A stretch of DNA of 64,000 bases. It comes from Akkermansia muciniphila (GTDB lineage: Bacteria; Verrucomicrobiota; Verrucomicrobiia; Verrucomicrobiales; Akkermansiaceae). The DNA lies in the NCBI RefSeq assembly GCF_900184965.1, contig NZ_FXYA01000215.1:186001-250000 (forward strand), given 5' to 3'. Made by a program: the position numbers and the translations under genes. This document shows, one piece after another, positions 21,302-25,347 of this stretch (position 1 is its first letter; the number at the start of each line of letters is the position of its first letter). A model generated the notes under the pieces. It did not search any database, was not told where the DNA came from, and saw nothing but the letters and a program-made list of their open reading frames with translations.

Positions 21302-23401
21302 TTATCTGCGCGGCGGTTTGGATGGAGTAGAAGAGGTCTGGGTTCGGGAGGCTTTTTTATTGGTCTCCGCGGAAGGGGAATTTTTGGGGATGTTCATGGC
21401 GGCCGCCAGGCGGGTGGCCAGCTTCTGGAAGACCGGGGCGCATACGGTGCCGCCTCCGGGGTGGCAATGCTTGGAAGTGGGGTCGTCAATGACGACGAGG
21501 CAGACGAAGGCCGGGTCCTCCACCGGGAGCATTCCTACGAAGGAGACGGTGTAGCGGTTTTCAAAGTAGCCGCCTGTAGGCTTCACCTTGTGGGCGGTTC
21601 CGGTTTTGCCTCCCACGTTGTAGCCTTCAATCCGCGCTCTTTTGGCGGTTCCGTCCAGATCCGTGACGTGGAACAGGGCGTTCCGAAGGTCCCGGGCCGT
21701 CTTGACGCTCATGACCCGGCATACCTCCACGGGAGGGGAAGGCTGGAAGTTCTTGTCATCCACGTAAATGCCGTCAACCAGCCGGGGGCGCATGCGCACG
21801 CCGTCATTGGCGATGGCGGCGTAAGCCATGGCGACCTGCAGGGGGGAGACCATCAGGGAATAGCCGAAGCTGATGCGGGAAAAGTTGACGAAGTTGCTTC
21901 CGTCCTGGCACTGGCTGTTGGTTTCCCCCGGCAGGTCGATGCCCGTTTTGGAGGAAAATCCGTACAGGTCAAAGTATTTTTTATACGTGGGCCAGCCCGA
22001 TTTCAGCGCAATGCGGAAAGCGCCCGGGTTGCTGGATTTTTTCAGCACGCCCGCTACGGTCAGACCGCCATAGGAACGGGGGGCATCCGTGACGGGACGG
22101 GAACCGGGAACCGGATAGGGGGTGCAGTTGATCATGGTGTCAAACGTGGCCTTTCCGCTGTCCACGGCGGATGTGACGGAAACGATTTTAAAAGTGGAGC
22201 CGGGTTCGTACAGGGACTGCACGGCGAAATGGTAGGCGCCTTCCTGAAGGCCCTCGCGCGTATTTAAATTATAGTGGGGCCGGCTGGCCATCGCCAGAAT
22301 GCTTCCGGTCTTGGGTTCCACCACAATAATGCAGCCGCGGGGTTTGTGGGTCTGGTCCGTGTAAAAAGAGATGGCGGCGTCCAGCTCCTCCTCCACGATC
22401 GTCTGGTACTCCATGTTTACCGTCAGGCGCACGTTCAGCCCGTCAACGGCATCCTTGAAGCGGGAATCCGCGGAGGGAATGATGCGTCCGCGGCTGTCTT
22501 TCCGGTACTCCCTGATGCCGTTGTGGCCCAGCAGCTGGTCGTCCAGCTGTTTTTCCAGGCCGGAAAGGGCCACGGGCCGGGGGCCGCTGTCCTTCGTCTG
22601 GGCGATGTAGCCCAGAATATGCACCATGCATTCCGGCACGGAATAAACGCGTTTGGAGGAGGTCTCAAAACGGAACCCCTGGACGCGGGCGTTCTGGATA
22701 GCCTGCCGCAGCAGTTCCGCTTTTTCCTCAGACAGGTTTTTGGCAATGACGATGCGCTTCTTGGGAATCGCCCCGTCTTTTTCCACCGTATTGATGATAT
22801 CCTGCACATTCATGTCCGGCAGGAAGGGGGCAATCACTTTGGCGGCGTATTCCAGGTGCGCCTGCACGTATTCTTTTACCATTTCCGGCTCATAAAGCTC
22901 TTCCAGCTTTTTCCTGGCCATGTCCACCCCTTCCGGTCCGTTTTCAGGCTCTTCCAGCAGGATTTTCGCCAGGTTGTGTTCCTTGCTGCCATCCTTTTTA
23001 CTGGCGGCCTGCCCCAGAATCTTGCTGCGGAAGCCGGAAACGAGCTTTTCCTTTTCCTTATCCGTTGCGGCTTTCTCCCAGAAGGGGGAATGGACGGCCT
23101 TGGAATAGGCCAGAGCCCAGCTGATGGTCTTGGGATCGTTCAGGTGATAGCCGTCCGCAATCAGCTCGGAACTTTGCATGTTGCTGGTGAGGATTTCCTC
23201 ATTGGCGTCCATGATGCGTCCGCGCTGGGGCAACAGAACCTCCCGTTCAATAATGCCGCCGCTGGAAACGCCGCTCGTTTTCTGGGGGGAAACCAGCTGA
23301 AGATTGACCAGCGACAACATCAGCCAGATGACCGCCGCGCCCGCCACGCCGCACAGGACGAGGCTTCTTCTGGCGAATCTGGACTTCGTGATCGTGATCA
23401 T
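21302..23401 (-). CDS. ftsI: FtsI, class B penicillin-binding protein (PBP3)
   Basis: Septal transpeptidase working with FtsW. It is 699 residues, longer than E. coli FtsI (~588), owing to an extended segment (about residues 100-190) in the pedestal region. N-terminal membrane helix at about 14-34. Catalytic motifs: Ser402-x-x-Lys405 in EPGSTFKIV, KKSSNPGAF (SxN) and GGKTGTAHK (KTG). The C-terminal tail is Ser/Thr/Lys-rich. It follows the FtsL-like gene after 16 bases. Confidence 0.95.
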   Translation of the reverse strand: MITITKSRFARRSLVLCGVAGAAVIWLMLSLVNLQLVSPQKTSGVSSGGIIEREVLLPQRGRIMDANEEILTSNMQSSELIADGYHLNDPKTISWALAYSKAVHSPFWEKAATDKEKEKLVSGFRSKILGQAASKKDGSKEHNLAKILLEEPENGPEGVDMARKKLEELYEPEMVKEYVQAHLEYAAKVIAPFLPDMNVQDIINTVEKDGAIPKKRIVIAKNLSEEKAELLRQAIQNARVQGFRFETSSKRVYSVPECMVHILGYIAQTKDSGPRPVALSGLEKQLDDQLLGHNGIREYRKDSRGRIIPSADSRFKDAVDGLNVRLTVNMEYQTIVEEELDAAISFYTDQTHKPRGCIIVVEPKTGSILAMASRPHYNLNTREGLQEGAYHFAVQSLYEPGSTFKIVSVTSAVDSGKATFDTMINCTPYPVPGSRPVTDAPRSYGGLTVAGVLKKSSNPGAFRIALKSGWPTYKKYFDLYGFSSKTGIDLPGETNSQCQDGSNFVNFSRISFGYSLMVSPLQVAMAYAAIANDGVRMRPRLVDGIYVDDKNFQPSPPVEVCRVMSVKTARDLRNALFHVTDLDGTAKRARIEGYNVGGKTGTAHKVKPTGGYFENRYTVSFVGMLPVEDPAFVCLVVIDDPTSKHCHPGGGTVCAPVFQKLATRLAAAMNIPKNSPSAETNKKASRTQTSSTPSKPPRR

Positions 23402-23417
23402 GAACGGCTCAACGCGT

Positions 23418-23762
23418 TTAATGGCCTGCCGCGGCGATTCGGGAGGCGTTTTCGGAAGAAATGTATTCTACGGCTGAGGGCTCGATAGGCTGTAGATTGG
23501 ACTTGTCCTGAGCCAGCCTGTCGCGGATGGCCCAGCGGCTGGTCAGGGAGGAAGTCTTGGAGCGGTAATATTCCTTTGTGAGTTCGCAGGAGGCGATCTC
23601 TTCATTCATCTGCTTGATGTCGCGCGCGACCTGGATCTGGTCGTTTTTCAGAACGGCATAAGTGATGCCCGCTCCGCAGGTAAGGGAGGCGAAGGCAATG
23701 AGCCACATGATCATGCTCACGCTGATCTGGTGGCCGGTGAAACGCTGTTTGAATCTTTTCAT
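23418..23762 (-). CDS. ftsL: FtsL-like divisome protein
   Basis: A 114-residue bitopic protein: basic cytoplasmic tail, one membrane helix (about 15-38, VSMIMWLIAFASLTCGAGITY), then a helical, probably coiled-coil stretch (QVARDIKQMNEEIASCELTKE). Sequence similarity within FtsL is minimal; the call rests on size, topology and position between rsmH and ftsI, which is the conserved FtsL site. Spacings of 16-22 bases on both sides. Confidence 0.8.
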   Translation of the reverse strand: MKRFKQRFTGHQISVSMIMWLIAFASLTCGAGITYAVLKNDQIQVARDIKQMNEEIASCELTKEYYRSKTSSLTSRWAIRDRLAQDKSNLQPIEPSAVEYISSENASRIAAAGH

Positions 23763-23784: not shown

Positions 23785-25347
23785 TCAGATGATTTTTTCC
23801 ACGCCGCGCAACTTGGCGCTGCGGGAACGGGGGTTGGTTGAAAGTTCTTCTTCTCCCGCAGTGACGGGCTTGCGGGAAAGCGGGCGGAAGCAGTAATCCG
23901 GGTTGGGCCGGGGAGCCGGCCATTCCGGGCGGTCTATTTCCGGACGGCTCCGCAGCTCAAAGAACTGCTTGACCCGGCGGTCTTCCAGACTGTGGAAGGT
24001 GATGACGGCCATGCGGCCTCCCTGCCCGAGCAGACGCACGGAGGAATCCAGCAGGGCGTCCAGAGCATCCAGCTCGCCGTTGACGGCTATTCTCAGGGCC
24101 TGGAACGTGCGGGTGCCGGGGTGCTGCCTTCCTTTGCGCGGCAGGACGGATTCCACGATGCGGGCAAGCTGTGCGGTAGTGGTGATGGGGGCCTGGGCGC
24201 GGGCTTTCCCAATGGCGCGGGCAATGGCGCGGGAAGCGCGTTCCTCTCCGAATTGCCAGAGAATGGCTGCGATTTCTTCTTCCGGGGCCTCATTCACCAG
24301 GTTCCGGGCGGAAAAGGCGGCGCGGGTATCCATCCGCATGTCCAGAGGGCCGTCTTCCCGAAAAGAAAAACCGCGGGAGGCGGTGTCAAGCTGGTGGGAG
24401 GAAACGCCCAGATCCGCCAGCAGCCCGTCCACCCGGGAAACCCCCTGCTGGGAAAGAATGCTTTCCACATCCTGGAAGTTGCCGGCGAGCGCCTTGAAAC
24501 GGGAACCGAAGCGCGCCAGCCTGAGTATGGCGGCGCGGCGGGCATCCGCATCGCGGTCAATGCCCCAGACGGTGGCGCCCTGTTCCAGCAGAAGCTCCGT
24601 GTGGCCTCCGCCGCCAAGCGTGCAGTCCACGATGAATTTGCCGGGGCCCGCTTTCAGCATGTCCACCGTCTCATGCAGCAAAACGGTAATGTGCCGGAAA
24701 CCGTTTCCGGAGACGGTTTCGTCCGCTTCCGCGTCAACAGCGGCAACGGCGTCATCCCCAAGTTCGGAAATCAGGGCATCCGCCCTTGCCGCGGCTTCCC
24801 GGGCTTTCAGGGCTTCCGTGTGGTACGCGTTTTCCCAGTTCATGGAGGGGGCCAGCGCCTTCCAGGAGCAGACCAGTTCATCCACTCCCTTCTCCTCCGT
24901 CAGCTCCGCAACCACATGCACATGGTTGCGGCAGACGCTCCACGCCAGTACGCGGCAGGACGTTTCTTCCGCGAGTCCGTTTGCCAGGGCCTGCACTTCC
25001 TCCGTGCGGATGTGCGTACCCGCGCCCGCGCGTAAAGAAAGCTCAATATGGTCGTCAAAAGCCCGGTTCAGGTCGGAGGACAATGCGCCCAGCTTGCCAT
25101 AGGCGCCCTTTTGCCCGGCCAGGGACATTTCCTCCATAAGGCGTGCTTTTTCCTGTTGCCAGGCAACCATATCCTGCGCCGGAAGGGCGTCGTGCCCCCA
25201 GAAAACGATGGAATAAGCCGTGAGTTCCGCATGCAACCCGGTTCTGGCGCCGACGCCCAGGCCGGAAGCGAGCCAGCCCGGGCGCAATGCAAGCGTTGCG
25301 CAGGGGCGTGCCTGGGGATCGGGCGGAATGGAAGAATCTGGTGGCAT
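23785..25347 (-). CDS. rsmH: RsmH 16S rRNA methyltransferase fused to a transposase-like HUH domain
   Basis: RsmH methylates N4 of C1402 in 16S rRNA. The usual ~310-residue enzyme occupies residues ~215-520, with VDCTLGGGGHTELLLEQGA (SAM loop, GGGGHT at 245-250), LADLGVSSHQLD, GPLDMRMD and FHSLEDRRVKQFF. Residues ~40-180 are unusual for RsmH and match the pattern of REP-associated tyrosine transposases (Y1_Tnp): YSIVFWGHDALPAQDMVAW, then SVCRNHVHVVAEL with an HUH pair His142-Val143-His144, then SWKALAP. I see no convincing catalytic Tyr after the HUH pair, so the domain is probably inactive for DNA cleavage. The frame is continuous; an internal ATG (Met169) could yield an enzyme of near-normal size. 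The gene starts 9 bases after mraZ. Confidence 0.9.
   Translation of the reverse strand: MPPDSSIPPDPQARPCATLALRPGWLASGLGVGARTGLHAELTAYSIVFWGHDALPAQDMVAWQQEKARLMEEMSLAGQKGAYGKLGALSSDLNRAFDDHIELSLRAGAGTHIRTEEVQALANGLAEETSCRVLAWSVCRNHVHVVAELTEEKGVDELVCSWKALAPSMNWENAYHTEALKAREAAARADALISELGDDAVAAVDAEADETVSGNGFRHITVLLHETVDMLKAGPGKFIVDCTLGGGGHTELLLEQGATVWGIDRDADARRAAILRLARFGSRFKALAGNFQDVESILSQQGVSRVDGLLADLGVSSHQLDTASRGFSFREDGPLDMRMDTRAAFSARNLVNEAPEEEIAAILWQFGEERASRAIARAIGKARAQAPITTTAQLARIVESVLPRKGRQHPGTRTFQALRIAVNGELDALDALLDSSVRLLGQGGRMAVITFHSLEDRRVKQFFELRSRPEIDRPEWPAPRPNPDYCFRPLSRKPVTAGEEELSTNPRSRSAKLRGVEKII

Follow-up and report, generated by a model that had tools for sequence, protein, structure and literature searches.

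The window, by which we mean the whole 64,000-nucleotide stretch of Akkermansia muciniphila DNA that was analysed, carries on its reverse strand a gene for the rRNA methyltransferase RsmH that is preceded, within the same reading frame, by a long N-terminal extension. The features of this gene and its nearest neighbours are as follows:

23785–25347, minus strand: rsmH with N-terminal extension, 520 amino acids, with the ends given by an earlier sequence-only reading
25222–25347, minus strand: leader, residues 1–42, pLDDT mostly below 50
24763–25221, minus strand: domain almost certainly derived from a REP-associated tyrosine transposase (RAYT), residues 43–195, delimited by profile comparison and predicted structure
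24916–24924, minus strand: His142-Val-His144 (the HUH pair), read from the sequence and shared by 11 of the 44 genus rows
24835–24837, minus strand: Trp171, kept in 39 of 44 genus rows
24772–24774, minus strand: Leu192, which falls on the RAYT catalytic Tyr when Trp171 serves as anchor
24700–24762, minus strand: acidic linker, residues 196–216, dN/dS about 0.7
23791–24699, minus strand: RsmH methyltransferase core, residues 217–519, by Pfam and TIGR00006
25357–25827, minus strand: upstream neighbour, presumably mraZ
23418–23762, minus strand: downstream neighbour, presumably an FtsL-like small protein
21302–23401, minus strand: downstream neighbour, presumably FtsI/PBP

The core matches Pfam Methyltransf_5 (E 2e-101, residues 217–519) and passes the TIGR00006 equivalog cut-off (306.9 bits against 154.3), which leaves ~216 residues ahead of it, close to the ~200 extra residues of the sequence-only reading. 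That reading had also placed the fusion inside the dcw cluster, and the neighbours agree: the ATG of rsmH follows the stop codon of the presumed mraZ by 9 nt, and the frames downstream are those that we take from their sequences to be an FtsL-like protein, FtsI/PBP, MurE and MurF. The leader is much shorter in most genus rows than in the window RsmH. A near-perfect 24-nt palindrome lies at the linker/core border of the gene (window 24697–24720).

The extension had been proposed to have a RAYT-type origin, to be checked by profile search. Such searches returned matches, all of them below the cut-offs. Pfam Y1_Tnp aligned with residues 115–165 (E 5e-4, 20.6–20.7 bits, curated cut-off 23 bits) and matched 7 of 35 genus extensions at E up to 1, and the NCBIfam IS200 and RAYT models gave weak matches that fell far short of their cut-offs (E 0.0017 and 0.0069, respectively). 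A profile of the Akkermansia extensions found no transposase among PDB sequences, its top rows being designed repeat proteins. The top match of the extension beyond Akkermansia was a RAYT inserted in IspG (E 6.3e-10, an E for one genome). Comparison by hhalign of a profile of 35 extensions with RAYTs gave P 98.9 and E 3e-17 for RAYTs embedded in other genes and P 98.1 and E 6.5e-14 for stand-alone RAYTs, each over ~120 columns and each a single comparison. The predicted motifs, N-H-V-H with the HUH pair His142/His144 and then S-W-K, are both present in the window sequence and lie within the RAYT homology. In the tree, a split joins the Akkermansia domain to the embedded rather than the stand-alone RAYTs (support 78/94, branch length 2.74). 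The window genome has only one other Y1_Tnp match at E up to 10 (L031 1381–2430, G000:C152), a 350-codon frame for a RAYT-like protein that stands alone and is of a different type.

The predicted structure is in line with this origin. AlphaFold2, run on an alignment of two Akkermansia N-extensions without any RAYT (a contig scan by full RsmH had supplied a single Akkermansia locus), gave an extension model with a mean pLDDT of 66.6 and block means of 68–90 over residues 41–190; two of the five models reached a mean pLDDT of 66 and three only 49.5–53.0. Residues 43–195 follow the order beta1, two inserted helices, alphaA, beta2, beta3 (HUH), alphaB, beta4, alphaD (names by analogy), and the full-length model repeats the same elements (mean pLDDT 80.5, pTM 0.59). 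In a VIA structural comparison, ranks 1–11 were all IS200/IS605 TnpA (Z 7.8–8.5) and the RAYT 4er8 had Z 7.0, values near 8 being moderate. Ribosomal protein S6 (Z 7.8) and an ACT domain (Z 7.7) scored similarly, and as these ferredoxin-like folds are unrelated, the fold alone is indecisive. Foldseek gave no E below 0.001, with mevalonate kinases at ranks 1–2 and TnpA from rank 3. Prediction thus puts a Y1/HUH core fold in the RsmH extension with moderate confidence, and the unrelated fold that would have spoken against the proposal did not appear. Together, the profile–profile match, the match outside the genus and the HUH-like predicted fold leave little doubt that residues ~43–195 descend from a RAYT.

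Next, we focused on the nuclease site. Genus rows were reduced from 47 to 44 by dropping L034, L043 and L044 (duplicates or same species). His-x-His is retained in 11 of these, the window RsmH included, and gone in 33, and in the RsmH core tree its loss falls on one branch (support 100/98), the ancestor of 33 genomes. The HUH pair therefore cannot be what maintains the domain genus-wide, so that the earlier reading, right about the presence of the pair in the window, does not serve as an account of the genus. The catalytic tyrosine of E. coli TnpA-REP is Tyr115. The Tyr of the RAYT profile corresponds to the E. coli TnpA-REP Tyr by alignment to 4er8. RAYTs have a Trp 21 residues ahead of this Tyr, and Trp171 is its best gapless partner, in a weak match; the alignment of beta4-alphaD around Trp171 to RAYTs is weak, with 117 of 2000 shuffles equally good. 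On this alignment the presumed Tyr position, residue 192, holds Leu in the window; over the 44 rows it is Tyr in three and another residue in 41. The RAYT catalytic tyrosine thus appears, as had been suspected, to have been lost in the extension.

No REP-like pair surrounds the window extension among the repeats listed, the REP pattern of the sister genera described below has no copy in the window genome (G000), and the fold z-scores of the leader DNA in three species were 0.40, -0.46 and -0.96. We consider it very likely that the extension is not a nuclease. As it has ceased to function as a RAYT, we do not class it as one but as the descendant of a RAYT within a genuine RsmH.

To place the extension in the genus and its family, we drew genomes twice. 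In the first draw, 34 of 37 genus genomes had an RsmH match, and all 34 matches start no later than query residue 45 and so include the extension. In the second, 142 of 145 family genomes had an RsmH match, among them 19 of the 20 Akkermansia genomes; 11 of these were new, and all 11 are extended. Over both draws the extension is found in all 45 genus RsmH matches, and Akkermansia sp. RGIG7755 carries the same kind of extension. G003, G007, G021 and G172 gave no RsmH match; G172, a complete single-contig genome of the genus that yielded no FtsI match either, was left out as likely missing a stretch. Outside the genus, no RsmH match in the second draw begins before residue 151 among the matches listed, and the search by the extension alone found no RsmH with the extension outside Akkermansia. 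As no RAYT-bearing RsmH was met beyond the genus, no intermediate was seen.

These searches instead led to RAYTs in other genes. We read 46 RAYT loci outside the genus, 40 listed in the search by the extension and six RAYT-like loci that the search by full RsmH listed in addition to RsmH and its paralogues. Eight are stand-alone RAYTs, and 38, all from sister genera, are in-frame parts of a larger protein (a few loci are truncated where a contig ends), as follows:

IspG, 13 loci (L065, L067, L069, L071, L072, L078, L080, L082, L083, L085, L086, L092, L095): RAYT in frame, in most cases flanked by inverted REPs
MetH, 19 loci (L063, L068, L070, L074–L077, L079, L081, L084, L087, L089, L093, L096, L098, L100, L102, L103, L105): RAYT in frame within the activation domain of the cobalamin-dependent enzyme, seen in two families of the order
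TPR/DUF5107 protein, five loci (L064, L066, L073, L088, L104): RAYT in frame with REPs nearby
Leucyl-tRNA synthetase, one locus (L099, 2663–5866): RAYT in frame after the editing domain, Y1_Tnp 45.8 bits

A Pfam scan of one embedded example per host found Y1_Tnp above cut-off in all four and a splicing domain in none of them. His-x-His is intact in all 38 embedded RAYTs, and the tyrosine in all 46 RAYTs compared. An exact stretch of at least 14 nt recurs inverted across the RAYT at 28 of the 38 loci; among 1840 codon-shuffled controls, for which all 46 loci were used, four show the same. Examples of the REP hairpins consist of GTGGC followed by a GGGGC..GCCCC stem. A count of one such REP pattern across nine genomes gave 18 copies in G148, 19 in G156, 13 in G173, five each in G104 and G186, one in G083, and none in G101 and two Akkermansia genomes, while the pattern read backwards as a control occurs twice in G156 and nowhere else among them. 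As the inserts are also present in single-contig genomes (G104, G153, G138), misassembly is unlikely. The RsmH domain is likewise in frame but N-terminal, so that it has one host half only, unlike the 38 embedded loci.

The IspG and MetH inserts come and go. Counting matches that run through the RAYT part, an insert is present in 15 of the 139 genomes that have an IspG match and in 22 of 137 genomes for MetH, both among the matches listed. In a tree of IspG built without the insert from 45 of 48 rows (15 filled; L227, L253 and L254, empty or unread, were left out), the insert state changes 12 times, of which at least nine changes are forced by strong branches; this is as frequent as with shuffled labels (mean 12.7). 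Close pairs differ in state, such as L241 (empty) and L086 (filled), with branches of 0.005 and 0.014, and L242 (empty) and L244 (filled), with branches of 0.028 and 0.031. Two of 30 empty IspG alleles retain REP sequence there: L243 has a complete REP of the counted type and L241 half of one. The hosts of L065 and L092 are 91% identical and their RAYTs only 48%, and for L085/L092 and L065/L086 the hosts are 84–85% identical and the RAYTs 72 and 64%, which means that RAYT and host have different histories. Repeated insertion, recombinational exchange and repeated loss are all possible explanations of the pattern at the IspG site. The empty IspG site of L242 (genome G183) contains a perfect 20-nt palindrome (CATCCCCACG and its complement); its close relative G138 is filled.

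We put at about an even chance that these loci form a class of gene-embedded REPtrons, in which RAYTs flanked by inverted REPs enter and leave housekeeping enzymes in frame at fixed places (IspG, MetH, TPR/DUF5107, LeuRS), so that an enzyme that is hard to lose contains the transposase as an internal domain, and in which one copy in Akkermansia was caught in RsmH, ceased to be a nuclease and is now part of the enzyme. We rank these relatives of the RsmH extension as a larger discovery than the extension.

The start of rsmH in sister genera was read at 20 loci, picked partly for long frames (L124 and L139 were not counted). At 11 loci of genera g22 and g29, 140–315 open codons, mostly repeat-rich, run from the likely ATG after mraZ to the core, whereas seven loci of other genera have 41–50 codons between the likely ATG and the core; some sister loci also have an ATG within 10 codons of the core. 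Such long and variable starts suggest that this place tolerates in-frame additions, the long stretches being open frames and putatively coding. The mraZ–rsmH junctions of L120–L131 consist of repeat-rich open frames, with units of ~110 nt in L120, and the PGWL of the sister repeats resembles residues 23–26 of the Akkermansia protein, in four letters only. These repeats were considered as REPs, but the repeat of G104 occurs five times each in two of five genomes searched (G104 and G156), only at that place, so that there it is a local tandem repeat.

To judge whether the extension is kept as protein, we compared its codon substitutions with those of the core. Over 36 pairs, dN/dS was 0.155–0.532 in the extension and 0.037–0.235 in the core, about 2–7 times as high in the extension. 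In six sequences of the muciniphila group, dN/dS was 0.26 in the leader, 0.07 in beta1, 0.18 in the inserted helices, 0.34 in alphaA, 0.085 in the HUH strand, 0.08 in alphaB, 0.37 in beta4-alphaD, 0.71 in the linker and 0.076 in the core. In six sequences without the HUH pair, it was 0.13 in beta1, 0.34 in the helices, 0.50 in alphaA, 0.33 in the HUH strand, 0.25 in alphaB, 0.47 in beta4-alphaD, 0.74 in the linker and 0.08 in the core; the domain segments are short in both cases (14–54 codons). From this pattern the extension looks translated and kept as protein. The HUH region appears to be tightly held only where HUH survives, and the HUH strand of the A. muciniphila group is as constrained as the core.

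Taken together, these results are best explained by the capture of a RAYT, of the lineage that sits in frame in housekeeping genes of sister genera, at the start of rsmH in the ancestor of Akkermansia, a route that we infer. The site of capture would have been one at which in-frame additions are tolerated in the family. The captured RAYT would then have lost its REP flanks and catalytic tyrosine and become a permanent, non-nucleolytic domain of RsmH. It may now serve RsmH as an accessory module for folding, partner contact or substrate positioning, with HUH unneeded in most species; this last step is the least certain. In the A. muciniphila group, where the HUH strand is conserved, that strand may have retained the binding of a metal or of a nucleic-acid hairpin. 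We regard this account as a whole, RAYT capture followed by service as an accessory domain, as moderately likely to be right, and the domain as probably useful rather than ballast. The RsmH extension looks like a fossil of the habit of in-frame RAYT insertion.

Tolerated ballast is the rival that survives best. It assumes the same origin with no benefit, in-frame removal being rare and a misfolded leader harmful, so that selection would act for foldability only. The loss of HUH in 33 of 44 rows fits this, as do the weaker constraint where HUH is gone (dN/dS 0.13–0.50 by segment outside linker and core) and the sister genera, which fill the same place with 41–50 codons or long repeat-rich frames and so seem to need no particular content. 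However, the extension was kept in 45 of 45 genus matches, and the core-like constraint on the HUH strand of the muciniphila group is more than foldability seems to need. We consider ballast rather unlikely. A second rival takes up the nucleic-acid binding proposed in the sequence-only reading and overlaps, for the A. muciniphila group, with the preferred account. Here the inactive HUH domain would recognise a hairpin, such as 16S helix 44 or one in the dcw transcript, and thereby steer RsmH or autoregulate it. A RAYT has been solved with a REP hairpin bound (title of 4er8), and the strong conservation of the HUH strand in the muciniphila group would suit such a role. HUH is gone in most species, however, and the extension is acidic (pI 4.76 in the window, also the median of 47 rows), which speaks weakly against binding of rRNA or dcw mRNA, although the embedded RAYTs of sister genera are mildly acidic too. 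We hold this second rival to be quite unlikely. The sequence-only reading had also named translation from an internal codon such as Met169, to be judged from peptides, in which case the extension would be untranslated. There is no clear Shine-Dalgarno sequence ahead of the rsmH ATG, and dN/dS peaks beside the core (0.71), but dN/dS is well below 1 in the other segments, leader included, the frame is open through the extension in every genus row read, and the ATG stands 9 nt behind the stop of the presumed mraZ; the substitution pattern argues against an internal start, which we hold to be very improbable. Least credible of all is a chance resemblance of ferredoxin-like folds, which the scores of S6 and ACT and the Pfam match under cut-off would allow but which does not explain sequence homology over ~120 columns including N-H-V-H and S-W-K.

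The preferred account, RAYT capture followed by service to RsmH, means that in a gut genus that has been studied a great deal a universal rRNA methyltransferase is permanently joined to a transposase domain. The embedded RAYTs that come and go at one site hint at how such fusions arise. If confirmed, the system would offer a natural setting in which to follow transposase domestication and suggest how single-copy RAYTs persist.

Several known systems are comparable. Inteins and homing endonucleases are alike in that a conserved protein contains a nuclease in frame, which close relatives may have or lack. Unlike inteins, the embedded RAYTs lack a splicing domain in the four scanned, so that the insert would stay in the protein. 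Compared with the RsmH (MraW) of other dcw clusters, the Akkermansia protein has the same core and gene place and adds ~200 transposase-derived residues; an mraW deletion in Verrucomicrobium spinosum is reported to be viable (PMC12283558). With RAYTs (TnpA-REP; PDB 4er8) the domain shares, by prediction, the core fold, as well as the HUH strand, S-W-K and clear sequence homology, but it is fused to RsmH, has no Tyr at the presumed position, lacks REP flanks and has lost HUH in most species. Searches of open-licence PMC papers listed no report of a RAYT fused to RsmH, IspG or MetH. A survey of the TnpAY1 superfamily, to which the domain belongs, discarded a few unexpectedly long proteins as gene fusions or annotation errors and, in the part of its text covered here, mentions no fusion to RsmH, IspG or MetH (PMC6006769). 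If our findings are confirmed, long RAYT-bearing proteins dropped in this way may be real. Palindromic elements in frame within ORFs, namely REPs and Rickettsia RPEs, have been described, in the part of the source covered here, in genes that include tRNA synthetases and genes of Opitutus terrae (Verrucomicrobia) (PMC3733652). Those elements are short, whereas the sister-genus loci contain an entire RAYT between two REPs.
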